Assembly: GCA_014871385.1 (NCBI GenBank)
Contig: CM026426.1
Span: 44,502,484-44,566,483, forward strand
Length of the DNA: 64,000 nt
Source of the DNA: Ceratodon purpureus
Taxonomy: Eukaryota > Streptophyta > Bryopsida > Pseudoditrichales > Ditrichaceae
Direction: 5' to 3'
The notes beneath the pieces were generated by a model, which ran no database searches, was not told where the DNA came from, and worked only from the letters and a program-made list of their open reading frames with translations. Below are positions 6,944 through 63,400 of this stretch, piece by piece. The stretch's first letter is position 1. Every line of letters begins with the position of its first letter. The position numbers and the translations under genes were made by a program.

Positions 6944-8435
6944 CAGTAAGTATAAAAATTTAAAATTTTAAACTGTCCTACTTAAGTATTAGAAATTGTG
7001 AAATTTTGAAAAATTTAAAAAACCAGGGATCTAAAAAATTAAGTTACAAAAAGCAAAAGTTCAACAAATTTAAATTCTGAACTTGAGAAATTTTCGAAGC
7101 AAATGGGAATTACTAATTGACAAGTAGACACTAACTAAAATGATGACTAAGTAGTAATTATCAGAAAAACATAATTAGTAAGTAAAAGACGGCTGATATG
7201 ATTACTGGAAATGGGGGCTGGGAACATCATTACCACGTAGCATGGGAATGAGTGCAGAATCCCACTAACTGTCAAATAGACAAAAGAGACTGGTTGAGTC
7301 GAGTAGACAGCATCATCGTCCCCAAAGTGGAAACCAGAAACCTCAAACAAACACAGTTTCTTAGAGAATACCATCTGCGAGAGAAGTTGGTGAGGATTTT
7401 TGTCAAGTAGACAGAGTGCTACGCTGTGAGTGATCAAGGTTAGGAGTGGAGAGAGATAGTTGTCAAGTGGACACAGAGTGAGTATCGTGAGGAGATCAGA
7501 ACTGAGATGGAGTGAGATACTGAGAGAACTGAGAGAAAAAGTAGTTTAGTCGAGGGTCGCATTGTTGCATTTTGTGTAACCAAGCTGTGAGAGATACTGA
7601 GAGATCCGAGAGAGAAAGGAGTGAAATAGAGGGTTGCATTGCTACATTTTACAGCATGTGTATGTGAGAAACTGAGCGACTGAAGAAGGAGTAAGGCGTA
7701 TTTCAGTTTGCAAATCGGGAGGTGAGTTGTGTTGTTGTCGATTTCACATGTTGTTTTGTCAATTGGACAACCTGATTAGCTTTGGACAGTTGCAGATATC
7801 TTAGGTTAAATGGACACGATGTTGTTAAAAGAAGTGTTGCGATGATCTCGATGTTCGAAGTAAGTTGATATGATACCTTAGGTCAACTGGACCCAGAGTT
7901 TCTGACTGTTGCGAGTGTGTCAATTGGAAACAGTGTGACAGAAGGGGAAGACGAAGCATTGCATCTTGAGAGGCATATCTCTCGTAGTCAAGTTGACACA
8001 TTGCGGGTGAGTTTCATTGCATCCATTCTGTTGTGTCAAGTTGATTGCATGTTGTCTTCGCATCTTCTTCTTGCATGTCCAATTGAACTGTTACTTGTGA
8101 AGAATGGTGACTGTCTAGTAGACAAGGATGTTAAGAAACACAAAACACAACTTGCCGAGAGAAAGTAAGGATAAAGAACAAAAGGAACGAAACTGAAACT
8201 TGGCGCTGTGATGTATGTATGATGATTGTGAAGTAGAAAATTAGGGATAAAACTGATTGCCGAGTGGAAGAAGTGTTTTATAGTTTTAAAGTAAGGAAAG
8301 AACAAAGAAAAAATTCTCGAGAGTTCCAGTAGACAATGCCGAGAGTTTTAGGGAGAGAAATTTCAATTAGACGAAGTAAAGACTGAAGCAAACTAACTGC
8401 CGAGTGTGTAGTCTAATAGACAGAAACAAGGAACC

Positions 8436-11183
8436 ATGGTAAACGAAGGTCAAGTTGACAGAGAAGGCAGAGGAACTGATCAAGGGAGGCCCCAACCCGA
8501 AGTTGCAGGATCGGTCAAATTGACAAGGCCAATTGCTCGGCCCAAGATGAAAGTGATGAAGAACAAGAAGTCGAAGAAGCCTGTGCTTGCGGATGCAATG
8601 CAACAGGACCTGTCAAGTGGACCAAGACGTCAAATTGAACACTTGGAGCTGAAGAAGATTGACCGGGAGGCATGGCCGCAATTTGAAGCCAACCGGGAAA
8701 ACTTCGTGAAGGCAGGACTTTGGGACTCCGTGATGGTTGTCTTCGAGGATCAGGATGATGGGAGGATCAATCAATTTCTGACTTCTTCGGAGTATGGATC
8801 CAGAGGAATGGCCGTGGTGGATGGAAGAAGCGTACCTTTCAACTCGACAGCCATCTCCAAGATGTTGAAGCTGCATCAAGGAGACAACTTGTTGATGGAA
8901 GAGGTGGGCGGTATTTCAGAGGACGATTTGACCAACGTCTTTGACAGAGCTGCCAAGACGCAGAGTGGCTACAAATTGGTGAATGCGAAAGAGACGTGGA
9001 AGGAGTGGTTGTTATTCTTCAATCAGAGAATCATGCTGGCGGAGAAGGGGCCTCTGATCATGTCGAAGGAAGGAGTAGCAGCCGCGATTTACGGGTGGAA
9101 TGGTGTCAAATTGAGTTGGGGAAACATTCTATTTGACAACATCAAGGTGGAGATTAGCAAGAAGCATACCAGATATCCCATCACACTCTACAGTGCGATT
9201 TATCTCTCGGAGTTGACTAAGCCGCCAAACCCGGGAGATGCAGGAGTGTCAACTGGACCAGCAAGAGCTCTACCGAACCTGCTCAACTTGACAAGGGAAC
9301 CAGAGCCCAGAGCTTTGACTCCATCATCCTCGAGAGTGAACAAGGTCAAGAAGAGGAGAGTAGAGGATAACTCCTTACCTCAATGTCTATTTGAACTGAA
9401 CCCGAGGTTGGGAAGAGGAGCAAGATCAGCCAGTCAAGTAGACAATCGTGAACCTGCAAGGCAACCAGCGTTGCAGCTCACGCAGGCTGAGGTGGTTGCA
9501 CAGCTCAAAGATGCATTGGTGAGAGAAATGCAGCTACGGTTGAAGATCAAGGAATTGGAGCGTACGGTGTTCAACTTGACCACTGAGAACAACCTAGCTG
9601 TGGAAGATATACGGAGGCTGAATACACAGTTGGCTAACTTGGCGGAATTAAATGAAGAATTGACCAAGCCCACCGTTGCGGATATTGAGATTGACACTGG
9701 GAAGTCGTTCCAAGAGCTGTATAACGATGAGAAGCAGCACCGCATCGAACTTCAACGTCAATTTGACCAACTTAATGATGCCAAGACTGCCATTTCCAAA
9801 CTCTGTACCGAGGAGAGGAATGAGAAGAATAAGCTCAAGGCAGAATTGGAAAGCTTGAAGAAAAATCCGATGGTGAAGGTTGTCAACCCCTCGGATTATG
9901 CGACTCTGAAGACCAATAACGAATTGTACCACCGTACTATCGAGATTGGTAAGAAGCAGTTGCAGGAGGCCCGGATGGAGAACAGGGCGTTGAGAGGAGA
10001 ACTTTGGAAGGTCGACTTGACATCACCACCAAGTTATTCCCTTTTCCATGCATACGAGTTGCAAAGGGATAACTGGTTGGCTATGGTGGGGAAAGACAGG
10101 GGATGTCTATTGGACAGCGGTGATTTCGATGCGGTATGGGCAGCGTCTAGTAGACATGCTAATCAGCAGAATCTCATCTGTGAGATGATCGCAAGAGGCG
10201 ATGTCCAGTTGACCGACCAGAAGAAGCTGTTGCTCCCCATAGGTCACTTGGGAGCTCGAGTGGTGTTATACTACACCACTCTGGAGGAGCAACTCCAGAA
10301 GAGACGTCAACTTGACATGTCGGTGGAGAGTCACAAACTGGTGAAGATGGGCGATTCGAGTAGACAGGTGGTGGATGTTGCGGAGAAGGTGCCAAGTGAG
10401 GAGCTCAAGGAGTGGACAGCAACTTTGGAGGGGCTGCTCAAGGAGTTCGATGACCGTGATAACATCCTTGTCAAGTTGTCATGTGTGCTGGAGAGGGAGA
10501 CTTATGCTCAAAGGGGCGAGTTGACCACGGCACACTATGTTTACGGGATGCACAAGGTGAGGCAGCAGATCATAGACACCTTGAGAGAGTTGAAAAAGGA
10601 CCACCTATTCATCACTAGCCATGATCTTCAAGTCGAGTTGACCTTGCCTCCACCCACATACAAGGCACCGGGGTGGCTGTCCATTCGAACACCGGTTACA
10701 GGATCCCCCTTAACAGTCAAGTACTTGGGGAATTATGCGAGTCTATTTGACAATGAAGCGGTTTTTCCGCTACCCACATGGACTGCGATTGAGTGGCTGC
10801 TGGAAGATTACGGGCTGTCTCGAAGGGAGGAGCGGTCGTGGGATTTAATTTACAAGGAGATTGTCGATGTCAACTGGACTGATGCTGCCCCCGAAGCCGT
10901 GAGAACCAATGGACATTTCTGCGACTGTAGAAGAAGGTTCAAGTGGGCTCTAGATAGTCTAATTGACTCGGTGGAGTATAATTGGCCTCTAATCCCTGGT
11001 CAATTTGACACGGCATGGAATTGTGCCACGGCCTATGAGGGCTTCTGGCAGATTCACCACACACACACCGACCCTGTGTGTTTCCGAGCAGCAATCTTCT
11101 CAAAGTTTTTGGCTCGGATTTGCAGGGATTTCAAGGTGGTGGTGAATGTGAACCGCTACGATGAGAGGAGGCCGGAGTTTTGA
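8436..11183 (+). CDS. element A protein: putative plant transposon-type domain plus coiled coil
   Basis: The ORF encodes 915 aa, with the ATG in a good plant context (ACCATGG). Residues 1-57 are basic. Residues of about 70-265 resemble the 'putative plant transposon protein' domain (Pfam Transposase_32-like, by pattern only): a VDGRSVPF-type strand, a Trp-rich helix (ETWKEWLLFF) and a hydrophobic stretch ending ITLYSAIYLSEL. Residues of about 350-520 form a long coiled coil. The C-terminal 380 residues are globular-looking and unknown. The middle of the N-terminal domain matches the proteins of elements B, C and D. It carries more than 20 motif copies in three phases. It may bind element DNA; no catalytic function is visible. 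Confidence 0.75.
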   Translation: MVNEGQVDREGRGTDQGRPQPEVAGSVKLTRPIARPKMKVMKNKKSKKPVLADAMQQDLSSGPRRQIEHLELKKIDREAWPQFEANRENFVKAGLWDSVMVVFEDQDDGRINQFLTSSEYGSRGMAVVDGRSVPFNSTAISKMLKLHQGDNLLMEEVGGISEDDLTNVFDRAAKTQSGYKLVNAKETWKEWLLFFNQRIMLAEKGPLIMSKEGVAAAIYGWNGVKLSWGNILFDNIKVEISKKHTRYPITLYSAIYLSELTKPPNPGDAGVSTGPARALPNLLNLTREPEPRALTPSSSRVNKVKKRRVEDNSLPQCLFELNPRLGRGARSASQVDNREPARQPALQLTQAEVVAQLKDALVREMQLRLKIKELERTVFNLTTENNLAVEDIRRLNTQLANLAELNEELTKPTVADIEIDTGKSFQELYNDEKQHRIELQRQFDQLNDAKTAISKLCTEERNEKNKLKAELESLKKNPMVKVVNPSDYATLKTNNELYHRTIEIGKKQLQEARMENRALRGELWKVDLTSPPSYSLFHAYELQRDNWLAMVGKDRGCLLDSGDFDAVWAASSRHANQQNLICEMIARGDVQLTDQKKLLLPIGHLGARVVLYYTTLEEQLQKRRQLDMSVESHKLVKMGDSSRQVVDVAEKVPSEELKEWTATLEGLLKEFDDRDNILVKLSCVLERETYAQRGELTTAHYVYGMHKVRQQIIDTLRELKKDHLFITSHDLQVELTLPPPTYKAPGWLSIRTPVTGSPLTVKYLGNYASLFDNEAVFPLPTWTAIEWLLEDYGLSRREERSWDLIYKEIVDVNWTDAAPEAVRTNGHFCDCRRRFKWALDSLIDSVEYNWPLIPGQFDTAWNCATAYEGFWQIHHTHTDPVCFRAAIFSKFLARICRDFKVVVNVNRYDERRPEF

Positions 11184-11473
11184 TCAATCTCAAGCTCCGT
11201 TACCACTCAAGTCGTTGGGGGAGGATGCTGGAAGTCATGGCCATGACTCATTTTCTTTACGGGTCTAATGGATGCTTCATCAACGAATTCAGGGGAACTC
11301 GGAAGATAGCTATTGACAATTGGCTAACCTTCCAGCATTCCAACAACACTGAATTACTTCGGAAGGATGATGAAGTAAGGAGGGAAGTGTCCAAGCTCAT
11401 GGCGCAGCGGATCCAGAAGGAGAGCCATTACGGTGACCAGCACCGTAATCACCACCGACGTCATCATGTCTAG
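11180..11473 (+). CDS. out-of-frame C-terminal extension of the element A protein
   Basis: This frame, shifted -1 relative to the 915-aa ORF, overlaps its TGA stop and adds up to 97 residues ending in a His/Arg-rich tail. The content is protein-like (FLYGSNGCFINEFRGTRK) and the spacing suggests it was once continuous with the main ORF. Either a one-base indel split the gene or a frameshift is used in translation. No canonical slippery heptamer is present at the junction, so an indel is more likely. Confidence 0.45.
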   Translation: MINLKLRYHSSRWGRMLEVMAMTHFLYGSNGCFINEFRGTRKIAIDNWLTFQHSNNTELLRKDDEVRREVSKLMAQRIQKESHYGDQHRNHHRRHHV

Positions 11474-11591
11474 TTGACAGTAGCTACAGTGGGTGTGCAA
11501 GCTAATCTTTGTATATAATTTCCGAGTCTAGTTGACATAGTGTCTAGTAGACAATGCTGTAAATGTGGAACTTGCCGGGAGTCAAGTAGAC

Positions 11592-11603
11592 AAAGAGGGG
11601 GGC
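11592..11603 (+). other. polypurine tract in element A
   Basis: AAAGAGGGGGGC lies about 120 bp after the element A coding region. It closely resembles the gypsy tract at 6934 and is followed by TATGTGAGTTGAC, a plausible LTR start (TG at 11605). It suggests that element A moves by reverse transcription, but no matching 5' LTR was found. Confidence 0.4.
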
Positions 11604-13336
11604 TATGTGAGTTGACTTTTTTTGAGAAAAGTCCTTTTCAGTAAAAACAGTGTAAATATGACCAAGTTACCATGTCAATTTGAAATCCATGTAGATAGTG
11701 GCTGTAGAAATCTGGTTGAGAGTCAAATGGACATAGTGTAGAATTCAGGGGACATGACCCTACCTAGAGACACGACTTGTCAAATTGACTCTACGTACAG
11801 GCATACCCTTTAGAAATTAAGGCATAACTAGGAATTAAGGAAGAAGAAAGAATTACTTCACCACACCACACAACACTGTGTGAGTGATAGTCACATTATG
11901 TAAAAAATATAAAAATAGAATTCCATTGTCTAATTGATTGTCAACTTGACTCTGAGTAGCTCACTGTTTAATGGATTCACAATGCTCTTTGTCAATTTGA
12001 ACTATAGCCTCGATGCACAGTGTATTAATCTGCAGAACTGTAGAATCAGAATGGAGAACTGGAGCAAACTGATTACTGTCTAATTGATTTGCAAAGCTTA
12101 CTGTCAAATTGAAACTGCAGATCTGCTGAACAGTGAATTTATATGTAGTCCATGGGAGATAGAATGAATAGTTTGATCAAAGGGCTACTGTCTAATTGAC
12201 AATTGAATTCAGATTGCTTGCTGCATAATGTCTAGTTAACACTGGTCAAATGGACAAGATAGTGGTTCGGTATGCATCCATGGGCATGCATACATTGTCA
12301 ACTTGACTTGCATGGACCATGTCTAATTGACTCAGTGGAGTGTTGGTGAGAGTTACAGTGAATGTGGTGACTCACACTGGATACTGTCTAATTGAAATGG
12401 ATACTGTCTATTTGAAATCGAAGATATTGATGGAGCAGAGTGAACAGTGGGTGAGATTGTCTATTTGAACTCAGAACGAAGGAAAGAGTTACTGAGTGTA
12501 TAGCAAATAGAAATTATGAGAAATAAACACAACAGTTTGTCCAATTGACATTGCATTGTTGTGAATGGGAATTATGGAGAATGAGAGTTCCATGTGAGTA
12601 CTGGAACAGTGAAGTGAGTATTACTTGATAGTCTTTTAAATTAGATTGGCCATCTGAAATAGAAGACTGAGAATGACTTAGAGTTTATGGAAGCCAGATT
12701 GAGTACATTGATGGATAAAAGTGGCAATTAATTATTAAGGAGTGATCAGCCTTAGTGATTATTAGTTCTCATTATAATAAAACTTGAATGTATTCAACTG
12801 AGCAATAGTACAGTCATTGTAATTGAGTAATACAATTGAGAAGCATAGTTGTGATGAATGGTAGAGTTGGAGTATGATTGAATGTGAATGAGTAGACAGT
12901 GATTACATGTCTATTTGAAATGCGATGGATGGGAGGAAAAAGATGAAGACAAGCAAGGAGTTGCTTGAGATAAGTTAATCTATCATAACATATCCCAAAG
13001 CATCATTCATAGGCATAAATAGGTTGAACACTAGATTCTAACCTAGTAATGAATGAACTTGCACATGCATAATAAATGCATTGTCTAATTGAACTTGGAA
13101 GGGAGTGATGGCAATAAACCGAGAGATGGTACTTGTCAATTTGAACTCCCATTACCCTTGAACCAATTGAGAGTTTGGATTACTTGGGTTTTATGTGACT
13201 TGGGGTAATTAAGACATTAGAGTTATAAAGAGATTCTTTTAAGGAAATACTTTGCATTCTATTATTCTTTACTTACTACAGTGACCTTTAGTTACGTTAA
13301 AAGCTAAACGAAAAGACCTATTCCCATGACTTACCA
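11604..13336. other. element A 3' tail and junction, no gene
   Basis: There is no convincing coding frame. The tail to about 13150 is full of GTCTAATTGA/GTCAATTTGA variants, often paired at short spacing (12385 and 12404). From 13150 to 13336 the motif stops and the sequence is AT-rich without visible structure. Confidence 0.6.
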
Positions 13337-15331
13337 CTATTTGTAAATTTCACCAATTACAGCTGTCCCAACCGGGGAGCTCGCATAAGTTTCTGAGTCG
13401 GACGCAGAAATCGTAATGGGTCCCTTCTCCGCTGGATCCTTTCTCTTCCTCAAAACTCTTCGAGCACCGGAACTGTCAGCAGGGGAGTCCACCACTGGCG
13501 TTCCGATGGGTGTAGAAGTCACCGTTCCGGTCTGGACTGTGGGTGAAGGGGTAAGTGCCCCCTCCTGAGTCACTCGGATCCGTCCAGTTGGTGAAATGGC
13601 CCTTCCCCATTCCGATCCTGCGACCTCCCCTTGGTAAGTTGGAATGATTACCGACGATCCGAGTGTTGGGAGAACAACCGGCTGCGCGGGCGGGGTTACC
13701 TCTTCCGTAACCGTCCGGTCCTCGAATCGCCTAACAGTGACTGTAGTCCCTGTTACTTCCGCCTGACCGGTGGGGATCGCGCAGCCTTGCTGAGCCGTGC
13801 TGGCTCCGGGTGACGCCACCTGTCCTTGGTGTTCCCGGATCATCTCCGCGATCGTCAGGACCGGTTTGAAGATATCCGAGTCGACCGTCATCTGCTCCTC
13901 AAGCTGGAGGTTGCGCTCCCTTGGGGTCCTGAATGCTACACCGCGGGATTCCCCTACAATGGTCCGAGAGGAAGATCCGGGAAACGGATGGTTCCGACAA
14001 ATGGCTCCTACGCTGGGACTTCCGACTCACGGATTGAGCAGTTGCCAAACCTTCTTCAGAATCTGGTTCATTAAGTGCTCGCATTTGGAGAGGATCGTGA
14101 TGATCTTCTACTTGTTCTCCAAATCTGCAGGTTGCAATACATTCTCGTCGAACAACCGGGCCTTGTTGACTATAGCACCCAGATTCCCTACCAACTTCCG
14201 AAGCTCACCCAAGGTCTCCTCCTGCTCGGCATGGAACTTCCGGATCTCCCCGCTCTTCGTCGCCAGTTCCCTCGTAAGCTCCTGCAACTGAAGCTCCAAC
14301 TGCTTCTTCTCACTCCGAAGCTTCGGGGCGTCCTTCAAAAGCTCCACTTCTCGGATCACCTATTCCGGTAAGCAGCCCCCGAGCGACGTGCAGACTCTCC
14401 GGAACAGCGTCTTGATCCGATCATAAGAGGCCTGCGCCCGATGAGTCTCCTCCCGAATTCCCCGGAATAGTTCCACCGGAAATATTCGCTCGGAGCTGAC
14501 CTCCTTCCGTTCCGCATCTCCCTGGGCCGTGGAGGGCTCCGCGTGCTGCGACGCAGCGCGTTCCGATCGTGACCTAGACAGAGCCTTAGTAGCGCCGGGA
14601 TTCGGAATGATCGTTGTATCATCATCCCCTTCCGTGGACGCTGTATCCGAGGTTTCGCCGTGCGATACGACATCCATCCCTGGCGGAATCTCCTGAAAAT
14701 TGAGGAAGTTCTTTACCGTCGTATAATTCTCCTCCTCCTTATCCATCAGCAAACTATACGAGTGGTAGAGGTGGTAGAGAAAAGGGGTGATCGGGGTCGG
14801 CTTCTTTCTGATCGATGGCACCATCTTCCGCACGGTTTCCGCTATGAGCGCGGCCCAATTCACCGGACGCTCCCCCGTGTACGCTCCGAAGATGGTGTTC
14901 CCGACCGTAATGGTGACCTGTTCCGGTTTCAACAGATACAGGATCGGAACGAGGAAGGCTAAGACCTGTCTCTGTCTCCTTTCCTTGCAGGCGTCTATCA
15001 CGTATCCGTTATTCTTATGGATCTCCCCGTGGAACCTATCCTGTACGTACTTATCCGTCCGGGTTTCCCAAAGGAGCCCGTTCTGCTTAAAACAGTAAGT
15101 TTCCGCCCACTGTTCCGCGCACCATAGCGTGGGCTTGCCTCGGATCGTGTTGTCCCACCTATTGTCCAGCCCGTCCAGGATCTCCGCCACCATCGCCTCA
15201 TCTTTCAGCAACCATGGCCGTGGCAGCAAACCCTCGCACCTCATCCGGGTGAGATCGTCAATCAACTTGTTCATCTCCGACTCTCTCACCGGAGTGGCGG
15301 GACTAAGAACTCTACACTGAACGTGCGCCAT
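13337..15331 (-). pseudogene. element B protein, broken by three in-frame stops
   Basis: The frame starting at 15331 encodes a conserved N-terminal domain of about 220 aa (RGKPTLWCAEQWAETYCF, then a hydrophobic FLVPILYLLKP segment and TPFLYHLYH), an acidic linker, a coiled coil (about 14350-14110) and a Pro/Thr-rich tail ending in RRVLRKRK. Stops TAG (14362-14360), TAG (14110-14108) and TGA (14029-14027) all lie in the same frame, with matching sequence on both sides and no frameshift. Restored length would be about 665 codons, close to the 643 and 621 aa of the C and D proteins, which align with it throughout. CAG-to-TAG and CGA-to-TGA changes would explain all three stops. Confidence 0.75.
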
Positions 15332-15481
15332 TTCTACGTCTCACTTCTCCCCCTTTGCGATCCGTCAGCAAGAAACCCGGCAATCCAACTGCCAGTGAAT
15401 CGGAAAAGACAAAACACCTCACCGCTCTTTCACTCTCTACTTCCAGTCCGCAAAAAGGAACTCCAAACCCTAACACTCTCG

Positions 15482-15489
15482 CTTATATA
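15482..15489 (-). promoter_or_regulatory. TATA box for the element B gene
   Basis: On the minus strand the sequence reads TATATAAG about 150 bp upstream of the start at 15331. Element D has a TATA box at a similar distance (about 200 bp), which supports both. Confidence 0.5.
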
Positions 15490-15499
15490 CCCAGGGCAT

Positions 15500-16679
15500 C
15501 ATAAACGCTGCGGCGGCCCGTAATTGCAGCCGCCATTGTACCGAGCTAGGCACCTATCTGAGTCATGATGACTTCCGCGTCGTTTCGGATCCTAGACGCG
15601 GTTACAGTAACGGTTAGTTCTCGAATCTGTGACCCATTCCGAGTTTTCTCTTCCGAGTTCCGGGATCACGGTTCTAGGAATACTTCCTGCGTTAACTGTT
15701 TTAAGATTCCTGGGGTATCCGGTTTGTGCTAACTCTTAATGCGGCTAATGCCTAGCTAGTTTTTACCTAATTAACCAAAAAAAATGAAAATTAAATGAAA
15801 TTCTAACTCCGGATGAGGCTCTTCCGGTTTATTCTGAGTTTCTCGGTTCCCACAGAGGGAAGCCTTCCTGCGCGACTATTGGGTGGACCCCCTGATTCGC
15901 GATTTGGCTCGCTTTTGGCGACTTGCTGGCACCATTGGTGCCAGCTGGTAAAGTGCACGGGCATGGCAAAAATTTCAGGCACAGATTCTGACCAAAGGCC
16001 TTCTGGAGACCCCAATCTTCCCCTAATGACTATGAGGGTTGTCATAACGGACGAACATGGGCAAAATTTCCGGACTCGGACGGATCGGTCGGTCCGGGGT
16101 GAAAATCGGACATATTCTATGAATATTCTATGAATATTCCTAAATTTTTCTCAAATATTCTCGAATATGCTCTAATATGCTCGAACATTCCCTTATGGAC
16201 CGGACATGACCCTTAATGGATGGATGCGCGGATCGGACGATCTTGCGGACGAGAAGGTCCTATGAACAACCATGAATACTATAGAACTTTTCTTACCAGT
16301 TGTACGCTTTGTATCTTAGTTCATTGGTATTTTGAGTACATTGGTATTCTTTCTACAGTGGTATTCTAAGTACGTTTTCGTTTTTTTAATACAGTGGTAT
16401 TTTGAGAGTACCTGAAATAGTTTATGGGGAGTACATCTGTATTTTCAGTACATCCTTTTGGCTTAGTACATTTCTATTCTTTATACATTTCTATTCCTTG
16501 TACATTTCTATTCCTTGAATGTAAATTCCTATACTTTGTACATTTCTAGTCTTTGCACATTTCTATACCTTTGGACAACCATTTCTTGTTTCATGTCTAT
16601 TTTTGTACTTTTCTTTAGTGAAGATTCTTGTATTGGAGTTACAGTAAGCTCTTATGTTTTTTTGTTGTTGTATCCTTCA
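15500..16679. repeat. non-coding stretch with clustered short repeats
   Basis: No gene is seen. Around 16110-16190, GAATATTCTAT/AATATTC units recur. From about 16300 to 16380 a GTACATTGGTATTYT-like unit recurs, and from about 16470 to 16570 a GTACATTTCTATTCYTT unit recurs five or six times at irregular spacing. The AT-rich units look like another element-specific motif set or a decayed minisatellite. A polypyrimidine stretch ending in CAG at 16680 looks like a splice acceptor for the next exon. Confidence 0.5.
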
Positions 16680-29930: not shown

Positions 29931-29944
29931 CCTCCAAAGTAAAC

Positions 29945-52883: not shown

Positions 52884-53063
52884 CGGTAGTTCTGTCCTCA
52901 GAACGCGAGGCAGTGGAGAAAAGGGAAGATGCAACTCAGGACCTAAATGGTGCAAAATCTCAAAAAAGTTCTAAAAAGAACAGTCGGAAAGAAAAGAACT
53001 AGTCTACAGCCTAAACTTGGTGAAAAATATCCTATAGGCGAACGGCGACTGTGTAAAAGTCGG

Positions 53064-55558
53064 CTATGTTGCTGACGATGCGTTGTCGTCCATCAGCCAA
53101 GGCTGGAAGTCGGGGTTGCGCTCCTCGAACCGCATGAGCCATTGTTGTTGTCGCTGGAAGTCAGCATGGTGACTGGCGAGGGCAACTTCAAGGTCGCGGT
53201 GCTTGGTGGTTACATAGTCTCTCACAGCGGGACTAAGGTCTCGAGGTGGGGAGGTTCGGGTAGCGACCTCCAAAGACAGTCGCTGGTTCTCTAAGAGCAA
53301 CCTGTTGGCTTGCTGCAAGCGTGTGCTGAGGGTGTGCTCTAACTCCAGACGGCGAAGTGATGGATCGGTGCGGCTGGATGGGGCTGTGGCGGCTGCCAAC
53401 TGGTCCGTCAGGGTGGTGACAGCCGACTGAAGGGCGGCCCTGTCCTTGAGAAGCTGATCTCGTGCGATGGCGGTCGTCTTCAAAGTGGTTGCTAACAGGG
53501 CAACGTGGGCGCTGAGGTCTTGGACTGTGGTGGTAAGGGCTTCGGCTAAGGAGGCTGTCTACTGGCGATTGGCCTCCAGCTGTCTGGCTGCAGCCTTTGT
53601 CCTCAACACGCCAAAGTCAGATGACGGGTCAAGGGAACCCTCGGAAGGTGTTCCTTTGGAATTGTCTGGCGGTCCTCCTGAAGAACCGTTGGGGTGAAGT
53701 CTCATAGGTTGGTGGTTGGGTGGTGTGGCAGCGTTGGTGGCGCCATGGAGGTTGCTGACAGGTGCTGTGGTTGCCCGACCTGTGTGGTGCTGCCGTCCTG
53801 AAGCTGTATGGGTAGCTGTTGTGGTTGGGGGATCAGCTGCGACAGCTGATGGTGCTGGCAAGTTGGCTGCAGTAGCCGTGTCTTCAGGGCGAACGGTTGT
53901 GGACGCGATTACCGCGCGAAAAATGGGAAGTGGCTCTTGACAGGGGAGAATGGCCCAACTTGAGGAGAGTGGTCCAACTGCGGTTGCTAAGGGGGAATCA
54001 GCCCGGGCGAAGGTGCTCTGGCAAGTCTGTGACGAAGCAGCCTAAGTTGGCACCAAGGTTGGAGTAAATGGTGGGTCTTAGGCAAGTTCGAGCAAGGTGA
54101 TGTAGGGTTGACTAGGGGGGGATGAACTCGCAGTCGGCTCGTCATGAGGGGGCGAAATCTCGTCCGGTCCAGACTCTGTGGCAGAAGATTCACCAGACAT
54201 ACTACAAAGACAAAGAATGGGTACAGTAGGTCTTGTACCTGGGAGTTCCGGGTCTGAGGGTGGAGTCGGTTGACCCTGAAGTTGTCGGCGGGACCGTAAG
54301 GGATATCGGCAACTGGGAGAGACCGTCACTGGGGGAATAGTTGTTGTAGGGGGTAGACAACTCGCTGTTGTTGCTTCCTCGGTAAAGTCCGGTTGGCGCA
54401 CCCTCTTGCCGTTCTTCACGAGCCGGCGGCGACGTTGGCCGACATCACCAGATCCTTCATAAGAGTTCGCAGTCAGCTACGTCTTGGTGGTTGGGACAAA
54501 TGCACTAGCCGGACCAGGAAACCTATCTCCGCTAGCTCGGTCACGGAGCTTTGAGCTAGCCAAAGACTGAGGGGGTGGGTCAGTGGCAAGTGAGCCCTCG
54601 TGGCTGCCATGCATTGTATGTACACTAGAAGATACCTGGGTCGGGCTGACAACTTCTTCACGGTCAGGAAACAAGTACGACAACATCGCATCTAGACGGG
54701 GGCACCTCGAAGTCGGCGCTTGCCGAGAGCCTCCGAATGGATGTAAATAAGGTGACGGCGGAGGTTGGCTAGTACATAGTGTAACCAATTAAACCTCTCG
54801 TTCCGCTCACCAGCCTCCTCAGCAGCGAAAATATGCTCCTGAAGGTTGTTGCTAACAAACAGCAACCGCTGTTTGAAGCCAATAGCATTCCCTAAGGCCT
54901 GTGCCCGAGTCTGATACGCAAGAGTAAGGGCAGAGGTACGATTACCATCGTGAATGTGCTTGTCTTCAGTCAGCCCGTACTTCGCAAACTTGGGATGGAA
55001 GCCGTCAGTGCTGCGCTGGTCCACCAAGTCGGCACCTGAGCCGAAGTCACGAGCCTCCCGGATGATGAAAGCCGTGATCTCCACTAGTTTCCTCCAAACC
55101 ATGGAGCGGATTGTATCCCTACTCTCGGCGGAGGAGCGGCGGATACCGTTAGCTGGTGGAGATTACTCGAACTCCTCTATGAAATCGAGAATAAGCTCGT
55201 GGCGGGGCTCAGGCCAGCGAAAGTGATAGAATACGTCTAGGCTGGTTAGCCTGGCCCAATCGACATCCTGCATCCCTGTCCAGAAGTCCCAGTGGGTGTA
55301 GGTTTCGAAAAAAACCTCCCAGCAACGGTGGGTATTGCGGGGTACACAAACCTGTTTGAGGAGCCGACCATCCACGGGGGTATGTTTGCGCTTGATACCG
55401 CGCCTCCGAGTAGGAGGGTTTGGCAGTGGCTCGCATGGTGGAGGAAGTACGTTTGCAGGAGGAACTGGAGGAGTATCCGCTTGATCCAGCTGCGGTTCTC
55501 GGTCGACAGTCTTGAGAGGTGGTGTGGGCAGCTGATTGCTAGGGCCCGCCTCATCCAT
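53064..55558 (-). pseudogene. accessory ORF of element F, broken
   Basis: From 55558 the frame encodes a Pro-rich start, a basic patch (RRRGIKRKHTP), and a Trp/Phe-rich domain (WEVFFETYTHWDFWTGM). It passes a TAA (55165-55163) and continues as a helical domain (VWRKLVEITAFIIREARDF, then ANLRRHLIYIHSEAL) to 54692. After a frame change come a Ser/Pro/Thr-rich region (54788-53559) and a coiled coil (TRLQQANRLLLENQRLSLEV) ending at 53064, with a further TAG at 53561-53559. The layout (N-terminal domain, low-complexity linker, coiled coil) matches the A-D proteins, but direct similarity is not clear. A frame at 56194-55811 may be its upstream part. Confidence 0.5.
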
Positions 55559-56237
55559 GGATTCCTGTCCGGTGAGGGTCTACAGTACTCCCCTCAAAAA
55601 GTAGGGCTCCAAGGTGCTGATCTGCCCTTTGCGACGTCGATGACTGCGCTTAGCAGGTCGGTTGTGATGCTCAAGGCCTTCTCTGCGCTCTTAAAAAGGA
55701 GGAGGACTGAAGACCTGGGCACGGTAGGCAGGAAATTTGCCACGGTCGGAATCGCTGCTAGTACTATAAAGGTGCGGTAGATCGTCTCCGTGGGCTTGAA
55801 AGTTTGTGGGCTAGAACTGGCGTGAGAAAACCGGACCTAACTGTGGTTGCACCAATGCTGCGGTAAGACTTGCTTGTATAGAACTAGGGTTGTAAAGATA
55901 GTGACAGAAAGAGGGGGAAGAAGGGAATGGGGGGGAATTGAACAATGACGAAAGAAGGCTCGCAAGAAGAGGATCACTTGGCTCAACCTTAACCCGACAA
56001 GCCGGCTGAGGCGACTGACTCAAAACGGGAAAAACAGCAATGGAAATTGAAAGCAAGGGTGACTGCCGAGACTGAACTTCATGACAGCAATGAGGGCAAA
56101 TAGGGTGAGGGCGATTGAAGGATTGCAGACCTGAACCGCTGCTTGGAGGGAGGTAACTGGGAGATGCATCAATGTAGGAACAATCTGGATACATGCAGCT
56201 GTTTTGTCGCGGCGGATTGCACGTATTCGGATTTCAC

Positions 56238-57566
56238 CTAGGGCTTCTTAACTAAATATACAAGGGCCATGTGGTCCACATAAAAAACTAGCTTGTTTCC
56301 CAAAAGGTAATGGCGATATTTATTCAAAGCATACACCATTGCTAGAGCCTCTTTTTCTGTTGTTGTATAATTCCTTTCAGCTGAATTCAATAAACGAGAA
56401 GCATAAGAGATGGGCTGATCACACTTCCCATTCTGATTCTGAGCTAGCATGGCTCCAACTGCGATGTCAGATGCATCGGTATGAACATGAAACTCTAGGT
56501 CCCACCTGGGGGCAACTAGAATTGGAGCATTTGTATACCTGTCCTTAATATCCGCCCACGCAGCTTCGTACTTCTCAGCCCACTTGAACTCCTCAGTCTT
56601 CCTCATCAACCTAGTGATGGGCTCCATGATGTGAGGATAGAATTTGATGTAGATCCGGTTGAACTGCGCAAAGCCATTAAAGATCTGGACGTCGGCTGCA
56701 TGTTGGGGTTGAGGCATCTCCTGGATGACCTGGATTTTCTTAGGGTCAGGCATCTTCCCTGCCTTAGAAACTACATGCCCCAGAATGATGCCAGAAGCTA
56801 CCAGAAAAGCACACTTTTCGGGGTTCAAGCTGATGCCATACTCTCGGCTCCTTTCAAAATACAGTCGCAGCTTTAGCAGATGGTCGGATGTGTCACTGTA
56901 GACTGTAAAGTCCTCCAGTAACAGCTTCATGAAGTGCCCCAAGTACTCCTTGAACGCCTTGTTCACAGCCCTCTGGTAAGCAGGCGGTGCATTGGTCAAG
57001 CTAAAAGGCATGACTACCCATACGAAAGCACCCCACTCCGTGATGAAGGCTGTCTTGCGTCTGTCCTCTCGGGCGATGGAAATCTGGTAGTAGCCCGACC
57101 TACCATTTAGGAAGGTATACGTTTCGTAACCTGCCACAGCATCTAGTACCTCTTCAGTAAACGGTAAGGGGATAAGGATCCTTCCTGGTAGCAGCATTTA
57201 ATTTTCGATAATCAATACAAATGCGTAATTGACCATTTCTTTAGGGACAACAACAATGGGTGAGAGCCAAGTTGCCTCCTTGACTGATACAATGAACCCT
57301 GTTGTCAGGAGCTTGTCAATGTCCTGTTTGACAATGCTCGCATAGTTGAGGTTCATCCTGTATCGAGCCTAATGGCCTGGTGGAACATCCTTCTCTAAAA
57401 CAATCCAATGCTGAGCTACTGAGGGAGGAATGCCCTTTAGATCCTTGTATGTCCAGGCAAACACGTCCGTATACTCTCGCGAGAGATCCTCCGGTGCCTT
57501 GGCTAAAGTTGGCTCCAAGTGACTACCAATCTTCAAAATTCTTGGGATCCTCCACATTACCTGCAT
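56238..57566 (-). pseudogene. element F reverse transcriptase and truncated RNase H
   Basis: The start of RT lies in one frame (57566-57369: DVFAWTYKDLKGIPPSVAQH), and the core in another from about 57197 (PLPFTEEVLDAVAGYETYTF, then GAFVWVVMPFSLTNAPPAYQ). The catalytic box reads LLED instead of F/Y-x-D-D, so one metal-binding Asp is replaced. RNase H retains its first Asp, its Glu and the next Asp (FYVDHMALVYL), then stops. The remainder and all of integrase are absent. With frameshifts and an altered active site it cannot be functional. Confidence 0.85.
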
Positions 57567-57885
57567 TGATTTTCCACAGCTGCTCTTCCTCAGTCAGGTT
57601 CCAAGCTGCCTCCTTCATCTCGGTTAACTTCTCCCGTACTGGGGTCTCATCAACCTGTACTTCTCCTTCTGTAAAGGTATAGAAATTCTCTAGGTACGTC
57701 GCAAAATCGATGGTAGGAGAAGGTGCCTTCGCTGGGTCGGCGATCTCCAAGTCCGCTCGTAAGTCGGGTGCGTCAAAGTCGGCCTTGGGAAGGTCCGGTC
57801 GATACAGGTCAGCTTTGTCGAGGAGTGGGACACGCAAGGGCTCTGGCAAGGTAATGGTTCCTACTGCAAATATATCTTCTTTTTA
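57523..57885 (-). pseudogene. linker between protease and RT of element F
   Basis: It continues in the gag-protease frame after the TAA at 57885-57883. It is acidic and Pro/Asp-rich with Leu-Asp-Lys-Ala-Asp-Leu-type repeats, then Trp-containing helices. It runs into the RT start with a frame change near 57530. Confidence 0.6.
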
Positions 57886-60426
57886 CTGTAAGAATCGATC
57901 TTCCTCTTCATCGGTCAACCCTTCAGCCAGGTTGTAACATACCAACACTTCTGGTAACTTGGGCAAGGATCCTTGCCTCTGATTGATGGATATGGTCTTC
58001 ACTGTACCATTCCCTCGAATTGTCATCACTTTGTTCCCCCAGTCATGAGTTGCTTTAGCATCTATGAGGCAAGGTCGGCCCACTAGCATGCTGTAGGCTT
58101 CGTCGACCTCCTTATTGCGAATGATTATGAGGCTGATATTATATAGGAGGCCGTGAATGTGAATCCGAACATTCCTAATCAGACCCACTGGCTCCACCAC
58201 TGCTTGGTCTGCTATGCGTAAATGATAGGGGGCGGGTGATGGCTCCTTGAGTCCCAATCTGATTTGTTCTTCCTCCGTGATGATATTAACTCCTGAGCCT
58301 CCATCCAGCAAGACATTCTCGAGCGTTAATTTGCCCACCTGCACCGAAATCACCGGTAGACCCATGTCAATATCCACTGCCCCAACAACGAGGCTAGGGT
58401 TTACCTGTGAGCCTCCCGAACTCCGTTTCTGGTTTGGTAGTGTAGTCAACAGTAAGTCCTTGTAACTCTCGGTGGATGAAGTAGAGTCCGTTACAGGCTT
58501 TGAAGATGCTCGGGTATCAGGAAACACCTTAGCCCTCACATACTCTGTCAGGTTAGAGGCTACTTCCAGGACCTCTCCCAATGATACCTTGATGGGTGTC
58601 TGTAAAATCTTCCTACTGACTGTTTTGGCCAGGGCCTGTGGCTGTTGGGTATCTGGATTTCGCACCTCTGCTTCCACAATTTTCTTGTGTGCCGCCTGGG
58701 AGCAATCCGAGTTAGGGAACCCTGCCCTATCTCCACCCAAAACTGGCCCCTCCTGAGTCTTGGCTTCAGAGTCGGCTATGTCAGTCTTCAGCTTGTCTTC
58801 CTCAGCACGCCTAGCCTCCTCATTTTTCTTGTTGATTTCTTCTGTGAAGGCAATAAACTCCTTTCTGAGACGTTCTTCCTTGTCCCAGTCTGCTTGAGTT
58901 TTGGGTTGCCTAGGTTCCGGTTCCTTGAGCTCCTTATCCTCGAGAGGAAGTCCAGCCCTCTCCCCAGCAGCCCTAGTCAAAATTGTGGCCACCTCTCGGT
59001 CGTCCAACTCCTGTAACTCTACACTGTTGACACCCATAGTATTAGTTCCCTGTTTCTTAGCAGCCATAAATTGCTGAAAGTCCAATTTATGTGGGCAGTT
59101 GCGCATCTGGTGGTCAATGCTTAAACAAACGAAACAAGCATCACTTTGGCCTGAACCGCTTGCTTGATAACCTCCTTGCCTGTTGTAAAGTGGCCTCCCT
59201 GTATTGTTAGTCGGCTGCGTAGCCGACACCTCATGAACTTGCACGGTCGGTCGTCCTTCCGATTTCGTGAGTCTATTGTTCGGGTTGGCTAGATTCACAA
59301 AGCTGTACGCATCATCATGCCCGAATTTTTTACACAGAGTACAGTATCTTTTGGGAATGGTGTCAACCCCTTCTGTCTGAGCAGTGGCAGTGTCAGCACG
59401 ACTATTGGTCGGCACCGTCTTCTTAGTTTGAAAGTACAGCTTCTTGCCAGACACATCAGTGCAGTTGGTCTCACAGCGTCTTGCCAACTCCTTAAGCTCA
59501 GTCAGGGTGGTAGCAGTAGAGCCGCTGGTAGTTACCTTCAGGTAATCAAGTAGTCCAGCTCTGAAGTATGTCAGTTTAAATCCTTCTCCCACATTAGTTT
59601 GCACGCAATTTAGCAGCTTCATGAAGCGTTCATAGTAATCCTGAACCTTCTCTCCTTCTCCCTGTTTAAACGTCCGCAATGTCATATAGACCTGCTCATC
59701 TGAATCCTGCTCCCTATATCGCAGTTTGAATGCCTCCTTGGCCTCCTTCCAAGTACCGTAGAGATGGTCGTCTAGCCAATCATTGAACCATCTTTGGGCT
59801 TTTTCCACCAAAGTTGTATCAAACAATGTGATGATAACCTTCTCATTTGTTTCTCCATTAAACCAGACACACTTGTCAAAGTACCTAAGGTGAGCATCAG
59901 GGTCACTACCCTCCTTGTAGGCCCTGCAGGGTAAATGCTTCCGCTGGGTACTAACAGGCGGCCGTGGCGGAGCAGAGTTGAGGTCAGTTGTCCGTAGTCC
60001 CGGTGTTACTGAAGGAAATCTCGACGTCCCTGGATAAGATGCCCGAACGTGGGGGGCAGCTGGTGCGATGGACGGACTTCTAGTAATTGTGGGAGTACTG
60101 TAGCTAACTCGTGCGGGAACCAATGGTATGACTGGAGGAGCCTCCTCTGGAATAGCTCCAGGAATTACCCCCCCGAAAGTTGGTTCTACAGTTTTCTCAG
60201 GGTACACTGCTGGCAGAGTCGGCTGAGTAGAATGGTACACATCTCCAGTGAGATGATCCACGTATCCTGGCAGCTTGTTGATAGTCGTAGAATTTGCTGC
60301 AGGCAATGAACTAGGTTCCGTCCTTCCTACTGTTGCCACATGCACCACTGTATATATGTAAGGGAGGTTTGGAGTAGTCCCCTCAATGCGCCCCTGGTCT
60401 GATTTCCTTCGTTGTTCCTCCAACAA
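57883..60426 (-). CDS. gag: element F gag and protease
   Basis: An open frame of 847 aa. After a Pro/Thr-rich start come the gag core (about residues 155-310: PCRAYKEGSDPDAHLRYFDK, AQRWFNDWLDDHLYGTW), a degenerate knuckle CTLCKKFGHDD, an intact CCHC knuckle CFVCLSIDHQMRNC, a charged helical linker (EEINKKNEEARRAEEDKLKT), and an aspartic protease with LLDGGSGVNI near residue 715. The protease pattern DGGSG is the form seen in many plant gypsy elements. The frame ends at a TAA, but coherent sequence follows in frame. It is the best-preserved part of element F. Confidence 0.85.
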   Translation of the reverse strand: MLEEQRRKSDQGRIEGTTPNLPYIYTVVHVATVGRTEPSSLPAANSTTINKLPGYVDHLTGDVYHSTQPTLPAVYPEKTVEPTFGGVIPGAIPEEAPPVIPLVPARVSYSTPTITRSPSIAPAAPHVRASYPGTSRFPSVTPGLRTTDLNSAPPRPPVSTQRKHLPCRAYKEGSDPDAHLRYFDKCVWFNGETNEKVIITLFDTTLVEKAQRWFNDWLDDHLYGTWKEAKEAFKLRYREQDSDEQVYMTLRTFKQGEGEKVQDYYERFMKLLNCVQTNVGEGFKLTYFRAGLLDYLKVTTSGSTATTLTELKELARRCETNCTDVSGKKLYFQTKKTVPTNSRADTATAQTEGVDTIPKRYCTLCKKFGHDDAYSFVNLANPNNRLTKSEGRPTVQVHEVSATQPTNNTGRPLYNRQGGYQASGSGQSDACFVCLSIDHQMRNCPHKLDFQQFMAAKKQGTNTMGVNSVELQELDDREVATILTRAAGERAGLPLEDKELKEPEPRQPKTQADWDKEERLRKEFIAFTEEINKKNEEARRAEEDKLKTDIADSEAKTQEGPVLGGDRAGFPNSDCSQAAHKKIVEAEVRNPDTQQPQALAKTVSRKILQTPIKVSLGEVLEVASNLTEYVRAKVFPDTRASSKPVTDSTSSTESYKDLLLTTLPNQKRSSGGSQVNPSLVVGAVDIDMGLPVISVQVGKLTLENVLLDGGSGVNIITEEEQIRLGLKEPSPAPYHLRIADQAVVEPVGLIRNVRIHIHGLLYNISLIIIRNKEVDEAYSMLVGRPCLIDAKATHDWGNKVMTIRGNGTVKTISINQRQGSLPKLPEVLVCYNLAEGLTDEEEDRFLQ

Positions 60427-61475
60427 GTCCTACAGTTGAGCCAACTCTTGTCTCTCTCGTTCTAGACGTTCTTGCTCCTTTTGTTGGGCAACCAGCTGCT
60501 AGGCTGCTAGCTGTTGGGTGCTAGCTGTTGGGCTGCCAATTGCTGTGCTGCCAATCATAGTACAGCTTCTTCCACACGGCGGTCCAAGTCATCCCCCTGC
60601 GGTGTTGGGTTCTTCTCTGGCCACTGTGGTTCTGTGTGCCAGTGGTGCAGTGATGCCACTCCTGACGGTGCACCTTGTTGCAGAGCCTCTAACTGCATGA
60701 GATATTTCCCTGGGTCTGATCTACCTTGGGTTTGGCTAGCCTGGTGTTACCTAACTCTCTCCCTTTTTGCCATTAGTTCCGCTGCGAAGGCCTCTAGTGC
60801 CCTTCGGTCTTCTTCTTCCGGCTCCCATCCTCACCGCAGTCAAACTTCATCCAGGAAATGGACATTTCTGTTATGAAGATTGTCTGGGAGGTGAACTGGC
60901 CCTTGCTCCTGAACTGATCGACTCCGAGTTTCATCCAGCTTCTTTCGTAGGTTCTGGAATGCAGCGGGTAGTGTCTCGGGGGTCTTTGGCAAGTGTCCCG
61001 GTGATACAGGTCGGCTACGTAGCCGGGTCGGCTCCATCTCTAAGTTGGCTCTGCCTGTGACTGTACTCGGCCACTGAGTCCGCTCCGCGAAGACCTCCTG
61101 CGTTTGACGTCTTTCTTCCCGGAAGGTGTTGTAGTCGTCTACTACAGCAGAGAAATCTCTCTTCAATGATGCCGTCCTCTTCATGTCTTGATACTTCCAA
61201 GGAGTGTTGGTTGGATCAGGTTTGCGACTCAGACTATCCCCTTTTTGAGACTGCCTCTCCTCTCCAAACCTGCTCTCTCTTGTCCTCCCATCCGATGATG
61301 AGAGGTCATTCTCCACTTCCATGTCAATGAGCTCACCAACTTGCTTGGCTGCACTGCCCTGCAAACTAAGTCGGCTCTGCCCTTCAGCTTGCTTCTGCTC
61401 CAGAGTTCGTTCCTCACGTTGCATGTATCGTCGGTATCGTTCCATTGCCTGTCTCTTTGCTTTGAAGTCGTTCAT
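60427..61475 (-). pseudogene. gag leader ORF of element F
   Basis: From 61475 a frame encodes 211 residues of charged helix (RYRRYMQREERTLEQKQAEG), then an Arg/Ser-rich part ending in NRNVHFLDEV at a TGA (60842-60840). The same frame keeps a coherent charged sequence down to about 60440 across further stops (TGA, TAA, TAG), so it was probably one polypeptide with gag. It has no recognised domain. Confidence 0.5.
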
Positions 61476-62624
61476 GTCACCCTCCTCTATGGATTTTCAC
61501 TGCCAGCAGTACCTAGTTGACTGATTCTGCACCGGTCATTCGTGCTTCCAGTCTTGTTTGGCAGTTAGTGCCTGTCAGAGTGAATGCTCCTGGTCGGCTG
61601 TTCTCAATCAGTTAGCAATCATTCTTGGTCTGCCTCTTCAGCAATTTGTATATCTGTCACCAAGCACTTACTGACCCAACACTTGGTGTGTGGTTGGTTA
61701 GTACTAACAAGTAGTTTTACACGTTTTAGGACCAGAATGAAGTAATTCAGAAACTGCTCTGTCTGCCTGTTCCTATCCCCTTTTTCGCACTGCACTATTC
61801 TCTAGTGTTTTTCAGCCTAGTGTTTATAGTGCTAAATTACAATTCTGATTTTTCTCGGTCAAAAATCAACCTTCTACCCAGGTGTTCAAATCAACCAATT
61901 TTCCAAATCTTTTTAGACTCACCTCTCAAAAATGCCTCAACCAACCAAGATCCTCAATTGAGCCGACCCAGGTCGCATTTCCAGGTACCCAAATTCAAAT
62001 TTCAAATTTCAACAATTTTTTAACATCTTGAATTTTCGAATTTAGTGATTTTGAACTTGTGAGTACACAAATTTTTTGTGGGTGACTTACCTTTTACCCC
62101 CTTTTGTTCCAGTGGATGTTCGAATGTGGCCTGGATGACCCTCTATCCCCTTTTTTGCTGCTGAAGTGCCCTTAGTTCATAGGGTGGGTGTCAGTCAGTT
62201 CGTTTCTCCTTCAACTGGTCACTATACCTGCGCCCAAACAGCCTGAAGCAAGGTTAATATGCTGTTACTGTCTTTCTGAACACGTACTGGACTGCAACTG
62301 TGTCTGTGCCAACGTCTTCTCCCTAGAAAACACCTGAACCGAAACTGTGTTTGGCTCTCTCTACTACAGCACACTGAGGTAATCAGATAAGTGTAGCTTG
62401 GCCGTGTGCTGGATAGCACTTAAACTTGCCCTCTGCAATACTGCAACAGCTCTCAGCATTTGCCACGGACTGCATAGGACCTCAGACTCACAAGGCAGTG
62501 ATTCAGCACTCCTACAAAACGTCTAGCAGTCACTACTGCCTCTCTGCAGGTCGGATGACTGACTATCAGACTTCTCTAAGGTGTGGACAGCCTACAACAA
62601 GCAGGAGATCACATGGAACAAACT
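61476..62624 (-). other. element F untranslated leader
   Basis: About 1.15 kb between the primer-binding site and the first coding frame, without a supported gene. It contains two GTCGG words (61588 and 62550). Confidence 0.5.
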
Positions 62625-62639
62625 AAAGCATGGTCGCCA
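62625..62639 (-). other. primer-binding site of element F
   Basis: On the minus strand TGGCGACCATGC begins one base after the 5' LTR end (CA), the standard place and TGG start of a tRNA primer site. The matching tRNA would end ...GGTCGCCA; I cannot name it with certainty. Confidence 0.65.
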
Positions 62640-62640
62640 A

Positions 62641-63073
62641 TGATATAGAGAGGATTTACCATCTATACCCTAACCTCTACAAACCCACCAAAACCCTACA
62701 GAATCCAACTTAGACAAGTACTCAAACCACTCATAACAAGCTAGAAACATACAATACAAGTGGAGAAAACAGTCAAAACTGCAATTAATGAGTCAAAAAA
62801 GCCCATAACCATGGTACACCAGCCTCTAACGGCTCTCAGACTCCTCCAACTCTAACTGCTTTAGTCTGGAATGATTACAAGAAACCCTAAACTTTCCTTT
62901 TAAACCCCTTGGAAACCTGGCGGCTATCATTCAGTCGGCTGGACAGAGTTCATCCGGTCGGTTAAACAAAGTTCCTCCAGCTAACTGGATGACTGTTTGA
63001 GAACTGCCAAGGTAAAAACTGAGGAGGACTTAGAAAGAAACAAAGAGGGGGAGAGAGGAATCTCCGATTAACA
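62641..63073 (-). repeat. 5' LTR of element F
   Basis: 433 bp, TG...CA on the minus strand, co-linear with 52439-52869 at roughly 90% identity by eye. Confidence 0.92.
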
Positions 63074-63078
63074 GTACC

Positions 63079-63400
63079 TTCGACTGCCAAGTTCCGACCT
63101 GAGTTCGGGTCCGACGCATACCAAATTCCGATGTCCTGCAACATACCTCGGTCCGCCTCCCATCAAATGGACTGGCGTACTATGCTACGCCTGCTTTATC
63201 TTCATGGTTGTTCTAGGAATCAGTGCATTATCTTCCACTTCGCAATGCAGCTGGCTCGTTGAAACGGGACACTTTGACAGCATTTCAGCAATGGCTCACA
63301 GTGCTGGGAGTCCACGGAGTCCTAACGCCTTGTTTGGCCCAGCCCAATTTTGGAACGATTGTGTCTGGAGCGACGATGAAGAGTATTTGGCAATCATGGA
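63079..63400. other. right flank of element F
   Basis: The first 80 bases carry AGTTCCGACC and ATTCCGATG words like 52080-52430. The rest has overlapping short frames with no recognised product. Confidence 0.4.

Follow-up and report, generated by a model that had tools for sequence, protein, structure and literature searches.

Neighbouring blocks in a 64-kb stretch of the Ceratodon purpureus genome carry their own, often palindromic DNA words, suggesting recognition by element-encoded proteins

Results

The stretch of DNA analyzed here, 64,000 nucleotides of the moss Ceratodon purpureus (GenBank assembly GCA_014871385.1, contig CM026426.1, positions 44,502,484 to 44,566,483; hereafter the window), contains six neighbouring blocks, A to F, in each of which a short DNA word recurs more often than expected. 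An earlier note on this DNA had described such words as dense in their own element, rare in the others and mostly palindromic, and had read them as element-encoded recognition systems with matching proteins. Our analysis found the observation to be largely real and the interpretation partly supported: the words named for A, D and F were upheld at the counts given below, and privacy and palindromy hold in this window for A, D, E and F and fail for B, whose word TTCCG is neither palindromic nor rare elsewhere. The pattern suggests that proteins encoded by the elements recognize their own element, most likely against silencing.

Organization of the window

Blocks A to E are situated between two Gypsy elements, one at positions 1-7000 with long gag and pol open reading frames (ORFs), and element F at 52462..62965 on the minus strand. 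Long proteins are encoded by blocks A to D, for which no Pfam match above the cut-off was obtained. Among 139 ORFs of at least 75 amino acids (aa) at 7.0-52.4 kb, no match to reverse transcriptase (RT), gag, integrase or transposase families was found at E≤0.05, and queries with the gypsy gag and pol sequences matched only the 1-7 kb element and F. The combination of a pair of long terminal repeats (LTRs), gag and RT was found in none of blocks A to E. F possesses all three: its LTR stretches (52462-52761 and 62666-62965) are 90% identical, its gag (57883-60429) matches Retrotrans_gag at 1.5e-11, and its RT (56238-57197) is 46% identical to the gypsy pol of the 1-7 kb element. F is a Gypsy LTR retrotransposon, the sole block among A to F shown to be a retrotransposon.

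Expectations for word counts were derived from dinucleotide shuffles and, inside ORFs, from 1000 synonymous-codon shuffles. Two scans were run without prior motifs, namely a palindrome scan of 41 windows of 3 kb, with 12 shuffles each, and an unbiased codon-shuffle scan in which the best word of each ORF was expressed as z and compared with the null maximum and the 95th percentile. The gypsy element at 1-7 kb showed none of the block motifs in excess and thus provides a built-in control.

A long palindrome confined to block A

Block A contains 37 exact copies of the palindrome GTCNANTNGAC (7271-12539), where dinucleotide shuffles predict 0.2 and none of 200 attains 37; the word is found nowhere else in the window. 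Its consensus is TGTCWANTWGACA, and the inner A and T are present in all 37 GTCN5GAC matches of the block compared to none of the 16 elsewhere. Sites with one mismatch number 92 in the window against 24 expected, and as they run from 7119 to 13145 the block was extended to these bounds (7119..13145). Within ORF A (923 aa; 8412..11183, plus strand) there are 16 motif sites, compared to 0.9 under synonymous-codon shuffling (0 of 1000); these sites fall in all three reading frames (8/5/3), so a repeated peptide is no explanation. The unbiased codon scan was decisive for this ORF (z=12.0; null maximum 6.6).

A coiled coil was recognized by eye in protein A. Residues 133-256 weakly resemble PF20167 (E=0.058, 13.7 bits, with a cut-off of 45), the ORF as a whole having no Pfam match at E≤1, and in hhalign about the same region aligned with the B/C/D protein family described below (E=0.0023, with a probability of only 12.6%). 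Both the PF20167 likeness and the B/C/D link are suggestive only. A relative of ORF A, P0003, is 97% identical across 64% of the query.

CCGG in block D and a spaced palindrome in block E

In block D (30009..33365) CCGG occurs 83 times, against 25.6-25.9 expected (0 of 200 shuffles), which corresponds to 24.7 per kb. Outside D the density is 0.9-2.7 per kb, except in GC-rich block B (10.0 per kb; 29 vs 17.5, 2 of 200 shuffles) and in C (4.7 per kb). ORF D (628 aa; 30931..32817, minus strand) harbors 52 CCGG compared to 27.2-27.6 in synonymous shuffles (0 of 1000). The best word of ORF D in the unbiased codon scan was borderline, its z of 6.6 lying above the 95th percentile (5.6) and below the null maximum (6.8). 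Relatives of this ORF are P0001 (84% identical) and P0002 (92% across 52% of the query).

D interrupts block E: E sites of at least 10 bits end at 29847 and restart at 33424. The motif of E was obtained by expectation maximization as a 16-bp palindrome, RYGTYW-N4-WRACRY, with a log-likelihood gain of 236 compared to a maximum of 86 in 20 shuffles. It occupies a middle part (27600..29990, some sites 22 bp apart), a right part (33380..40600) and a probable left part (23342..23380) formed by two E-type sites 22 bp apart to the left of block C. The form YGTYWN4WRACR occurs 27 times in the window compared to 4.4 expected; 23 of these lie at 27.6-29.9 and 33.4-40.6 kb, two at 23343 and 23365, and two elsewhere. 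The word first proposed for E, GCGT-N8-ACGC, is thus real in this broader form; in its original form it has four copies in the window, a number that none of 100 shuffles attained (0.26 expected), and only two of these copies are inside E. Of 68 sites of at least 8 bits in the window, 51 are in the middle and right parts, and because the site model was trained on these same parts, the shuffles rather than the contrast between inside and outside are the control.

The E sites are also often 22 bp apart. Thirteen pairs lie at exactly 22 bp and nine at 44 bp, compared to a maximum of 4 pairs at any distance in 500 random placements; pairs at 32 bp (4) and 54 bp (4) only equal that random maximum. 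The six-base spacers of the 22-bp pairs are distinct in 11 of 13 cases. E contains a single protein-like long ORF, as judged by eye (239 aa; 28907..29623, minus strand; coiled coil also by eye), and no E site of at least 10 bits lies inside it.

Two further repeats were noted in and around E. Direct repeats of 76 bp (33833-33908 and 35073-35148) are 86% identical, each with E motif sites. The sequence TTCGTTCCCAC occurs in the window only at 23413, 23428 and 29954, to the left of C and to the left of D, and may be a repeat peculiar to E that was broken up when C and D inserted.

Palindromes in element F

In element F (52.4-63.0 kb) the word AGCCGAC/GTCGGCT was counted 16 times compared to 1.0 expected (0 of 200 shuffles), and 10 of the 11 copies of its palindromic core AGYCGRCT in the window are inside F. 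The gag ORF has four AGCCGAC/GTCGGCT compared to 0.5 in synonymous shuffles (2 of 1000). An extra ORF of 218 aa between the 5' LTR and gag (60840..61496, minus strand), with no Pfam match at E≤1, has three compared to 0.3 (0 of 1000), and its product is a candidate cognate protein of F.

Blocks B and C and a common protein family

The words CGGAW/TTCCG define block B (13468..16072), where TTCCG/CGGAA occurs 33 times (first at 13468, last at 16068) compared to 9.4-9.6 expected (0 of 200 shuffles). This word, which the earlier note assigned to B, is indeed enriched there; it is not palindromic, and as it is also raised in C (24 vs 11.9) and D (29 vs 9.9) it is not private to B. Its density is 11.4 per kb in B, 8.6 in D and 5.3 in C. 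The ORFs of B (13340..15340, minus strand) are B1 (13340-14026), an ORF at 14111-14359 and B2 (14363-15340), the frame being broken or spliced. Codon shuffles gave 16 copies vs 5.6-5.7 for B2 (0 of 1000) and 8 vs 4.3 for B1 (37 of 1000).

Block C (23582..27524), absent from the elements listed in the earlier note, is dense in GYGGA from 23584 to a last copy at 27500, with 65 copies compared to 20.4 (0 of 300 shuffles; the word was picked on the same data). C probably interrupts E as a nested element; one E-like site of lower score (9.7 bits, at 27444) is found within its proposed borders. ORF C (672 aa; 24839..26857, minus strand) has 32 GYGGA compared to 21.2 in codon shuffles (1 of 1000), and a helical N-terminal domain followed by a long coiled coil is predicted for its product (405 residues modelled).

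The B, C and D proteins are homologous, with a common N-terminal domain of 27-37% identity. To the profile of this B/C/D family B2 is a strong match and ORF 14111-14359 a weak one (E 0.008), and B1 is not among the matches listed. A profile search of public genome and metagenome sets (7,994 candidates scored) recovered 55 family proteins, including P0001 and P0002, none of which has a precomputed Pfam domain, and these proteins fit a multi-copy family. In the model built from 58 sequences helices predominate; its N-terminal domain, at close to 90 pLDDT, is followed by a long coiled-coil-like helix. Weak, sub-threshold matches to PF20167 were detected in 6 of the 58 members (best E=0.005). By eye, the C-termini of the C and D proteins are rich in lysine and arginine and resemble nuclear localization signals.

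The top words of the three blocks are CGGAW in B, GYGGA in C and CCGG in D, each strongest at home. The density of TCCG/CGGA per kb is 26 in B, 14 in C and 27 in D, whereas the gypsy element and blocks A, E and F have 2-5, and there is no cross-excess of GYGGA in D (9 vs 16.5) or of CCGG in C (21 vs 23.0). Homologous proteins accompanied by related, different words are the pattern expected if a recognition code were drifting within one family, as seen in three blocks only and with words picked from the same data. On this point the idea of matching proteins in the earlier note finds its support.

Scans without prior motifs and the origin of the words

The palindrome scan placed A, D and the right part of E well above shuffles and F only modestly so, with windows at 57-63 kb marked and those at 51-58.5 kb unmarked. 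Windows at 25.5-28.5 kb were marginally marked, by another pattern, and a mark at 13.5-18 kb is probably due to a tandem array at 16302-16588. Two windows inside 22.5-27 kb (C) and the region of 47 kb were unmarked. An ACCAG/CTGGT patch had been claimed at 47 kb, which the counts do not bear out: there are 7 copies in a 1-kb bin and 13 vs 7.9 at 43.5-48 kb, a number reached by 12 of 200 shuffles. In a wider word scan, other words were marginally in excess at 40.5-45 and 45-48 kb.

These results bear on the possibility that the words are a compositional or mutational artefact, arising from GC-rich or methylation-driven bias in old elements or left by tandem duplication. B, C and D are indeed GC-rich, with CpG observed/expected of 0.87-0.99, the words of B and C are short, B2 is only at the 95th percentile of the unbiased codon scan with C under it, and a weak tandem array with a 22-bp period makes up part of E. 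On the other hand, shuffling dinucleotides fails to recreate the counts of A, B, D and E, and shuffling synonymous codons fails for A, D and B2; the 11-bp word of A is not obtainable from composition, and the spacers of E are mostly distinct. We consider an artefact the most improbable of the three alternatives weighed here. That the words in A, D and B exceed synonymous-codon shuffles points to selection on DNA.

Candidate target duplications and the mobility of the blocks

C and D are each flanked on the two sides by a shared 9-mer, TCACGGAAA for C (23573-23581 and 27525-27533) and GGAAATCAC for D (30000-30008 and 33366-33374), each a candidate 9-bp target duplication; no clear terminal inverted repeat and no transposase match was found for either block. 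With tight flanks, which were set after the candidates had been seen, a shared 9-mer appears in 12% of shuffles for C and 8% for D, the latter rising to 16% with wider flanks. Treating C and D as independent, and allowing the tight flanks, gives a joint chance of about 1%, and because these flanks were chosen afterwards the true joint chance is above that value. Target duplications of 9 bp are typical of Mutator-like elements. The earlier note had called the elements retrotransposon-like, a description that applies to F and is not supported for A to E, where no corresponding enzyme was matched; the candidate duplications of C and D would fit a DNA transposon better. The 9-mer of C is a rotation of that of D, which may have some other meaning.

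If C and D were DNA transposons, the words could be sites for a transposition protein that synapses the element ends, with no anti-silencing role, and the words of C and D do end near the candidate duplications. The sites are however found throughout each block, with no clustering at the ends, and the search of the 139 ORFs at 7.0-52.4 kb yielded no transposase family. We regard this alternative as improbable.

Discussion

Proposed recognition of the elements by their own proteins

Dense, palindromic, block-private words under constraint at the DNA level are most readily accounted for by a sequence-specific protein, and the proteins of the blocks are the natural candidates. We put at about even the chance that blocks A to F are parts of separate mobile elements, each dotted with its own word, which is bound by a nuclear protein of its own family. 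Each word would then be the binding site of a protein from the same element family, repeated along the element: protein A would bind arrays of GTCAANTTGAC and protein D arrays of CCGG. The palindromes of A, D, E and F are what a dimeric protein, for instance one with a coiled coil, would be expected to bind, and the 22-bp spacing in E (about two helical turns), with some pairs at 32 bp, would suit side-by-side cooperative binding. The likely use of such self-recognition would be to protect the element's own copies from host silencing by DNA methylation, the role of VANC in VANDAL, and motif and protein would diverge together between families. We infer that A to E can move, that their proteins reside in the nucleus and bind the words, that this binding opposes silencing, and that each motif evolves together with its protein.

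The words could instead be host transcription-factor sites gathered by the elements for their own transcription. Several resemble known factor sites: the W-box of WRKY factors (TTGAC) in A, the G-box/ABRE (CACGTGGC) in C, the DRE (AGCCGAC) in F and TGACG-like half sites of bZIP factors in E. TTGAC half sites in A and AGCCGAC in F speak for this origin, as do the seven ACGTGGC in C compared to 0.3 expected (0 of 200 shuffles). Against it, the sites are spread across whole elements, including the coding sequence of ORFs A and D, rather than limited to promoters; the words of A and E are long palindromes; and related words accompany homologous proteins. No plant factor is known for CCGG, which also counts against it. 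We judge host-factor sites unlikely, if the least unlikely of the alternatives.

Several observations weigh against recognition by the elements' own proteins. No transposase or retrotransposon enzyme was found in A to E, so that their mobility is deduced, and A and B have no shared 9-mer at their borders. The words of B and C are short, lack palindromy and are partly shared. GYGGA is also raised at 16.6-22.5 kb (28 vs 15.7), and at 41-52.4 kb, where no element was identified, both GYGGA (46 vs 31.1) and CCGG (31 vs 18.3) are mildly up. The unbiased codon scan puts B2 level with the 95th percentile and both C and F under it, and the gag of the control gypsy element likewise reaches its own 95th percentile. 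Codons under the motifs are not significantly more conserved than expected, either in A compared to P0003 (49 of 49 identical, P=0.22) or under CCGG in P0001 (P=0.57) and P0002 (P=0.45). As for E, no full-length cognate protein was identified in the block; the 22-bp pairs are partly dependent, since 4 of 13 lie in the two 86%-identical duplicates and 3 in the weak tandem array at 37.1 kb; and the palindrome scan marked every window of the right part and left the middle part (27-30 kb) unmarked.

Comparison with known systems

Element-encoded, sequence-specific anti-silencing has been shown for VANDAL, a Mutator-like element of Arabidopsis (PMC5735166). That work describes for VANC proteins an element-specific short motif, dense at home and rare elsewhere, with related proteins using different motifs, density-dependent targeting and loss of methylation. 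The motif of VANC21, YAGTATTAY, faces one way throughout its arrays and is found chiefly outside coding sequence and in tandem repeats; VANC contains DUF1985/DUF287, and the VANDAL element encodes a transposase as well (PMC5735166). Similarly, within this window the motifs of A, D, E and F are dense in their own block and rare in the others (unlike the TTCCG of B), related proteins of B, C and D go with different motifs, and the arrays of E have a tandem-repeat character. Unlike the VANC motif, those of A, D, E and F are palindromic, sites lie in the coding sequence of A, D and B, and only E has repeat-like spacing. At E≤1, Pfam gave no match to DUF1985 or DUF287 for ORFs A, B1, B2, C and D or for the first member of the 58-member family set, and DUF1985 is not among the 25 of 68 matched families listed for the 58 family members. 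No Mutator-like transposase was found at E≤0.05 in the 139 ORFs at 7.0-52.4 kb, and autonomous relatives may still have one. Because of the palindromy, the coding sites and the lack of DUF1985 or transposase matches, the system is not classed as VANC; by analogy, it may work like it.

Extra proteins of plant LTR retrotransposons offer a second comparison. The additional ORF (aORF) of Athila carries PF20167 (Transposase_32), and that work predicts nuclear signals (PMC11728184). The proteins here resemble aORF products in being extra proteins of unknown function on mobile elements, in the PF20167 likeness, weak and below threshold, of A and of some B/C/D members, and, for F, in the position of the extra ORF between LTR and gag. 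They differ from the Athila type in that A to D lack gag-pol, and the nuclear signals noted in C and D were recognized by eye only. The available part of the aORF account mentions no DNA motif or binding role (PMC11728184). A 2026 study in sunflower, in its available text, leaves open whether the extra proteins of Tork and Athila shape the methylation of these elements (PMC12844716).

Among classical transposons, TnpA of En/Spm and the Ac transposase bind many copies of short words, the subterminal repeats, in their own element, and TnpA has also been linked to demethylation. Those sites are subterminal, in contrast to the sites in the present blocks, which span the whole element. A literature search covering mostly papers outside subscription found no account of plant elements that carry palindromic motifs along their whole length together with cognate proteins.

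More tentatively, with distinctly less confidence than an even chance would express, unrelated plant mobile elements, both Gypsy and enzyme-less ones, may each have come to use the same device, in which a dimeric DNA-binding protein encoded by the element is paired with a palindromic word private to that element and present throughout its length, also in coding sequence. In one case the words would be helix-phased, so that the element could be coated by the protein; the B/C/D family would in addition possess a fast-changing recognition code (CGGAW, GYGGA, CCGG). Several more element families, each with a motif of its own, within a single stretch of 64 kb would point to a common strategy. If true, this would give a function to many uncharacterized extra proteins of plant mobile elements, provide motif-protein pairs for decoding the evolution of recognition, make the B/C/D family a natural set of sequence-specific epigenome tools, and add a new example of mobile DNA tagging itself for its own protein.

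Other features of the window

An uninterrupted ORF at 48071-48748 (plus strand) encodes a calcineurin B-like (CBL) protein whose closest solved match is CBL2 (E 8e-93); judged from this similarity, it is a plant gene or a retrocopy, and it supports a plant as the source of the window. In the Pfam scan, two ORFs within 7000-52400 gave weak matches to the SET domain (best E 0.0036). The tandem array at 16302-16588, adjoining block B, is a degenerate 17-bp repeat (GTACATTTCTATTCCTT-like). Finally, the region at 39001-43500 contains one or more long C runs, with counts of 11 and 13 for CCCCCCC in a pair of overlapping windows of 3 kb.

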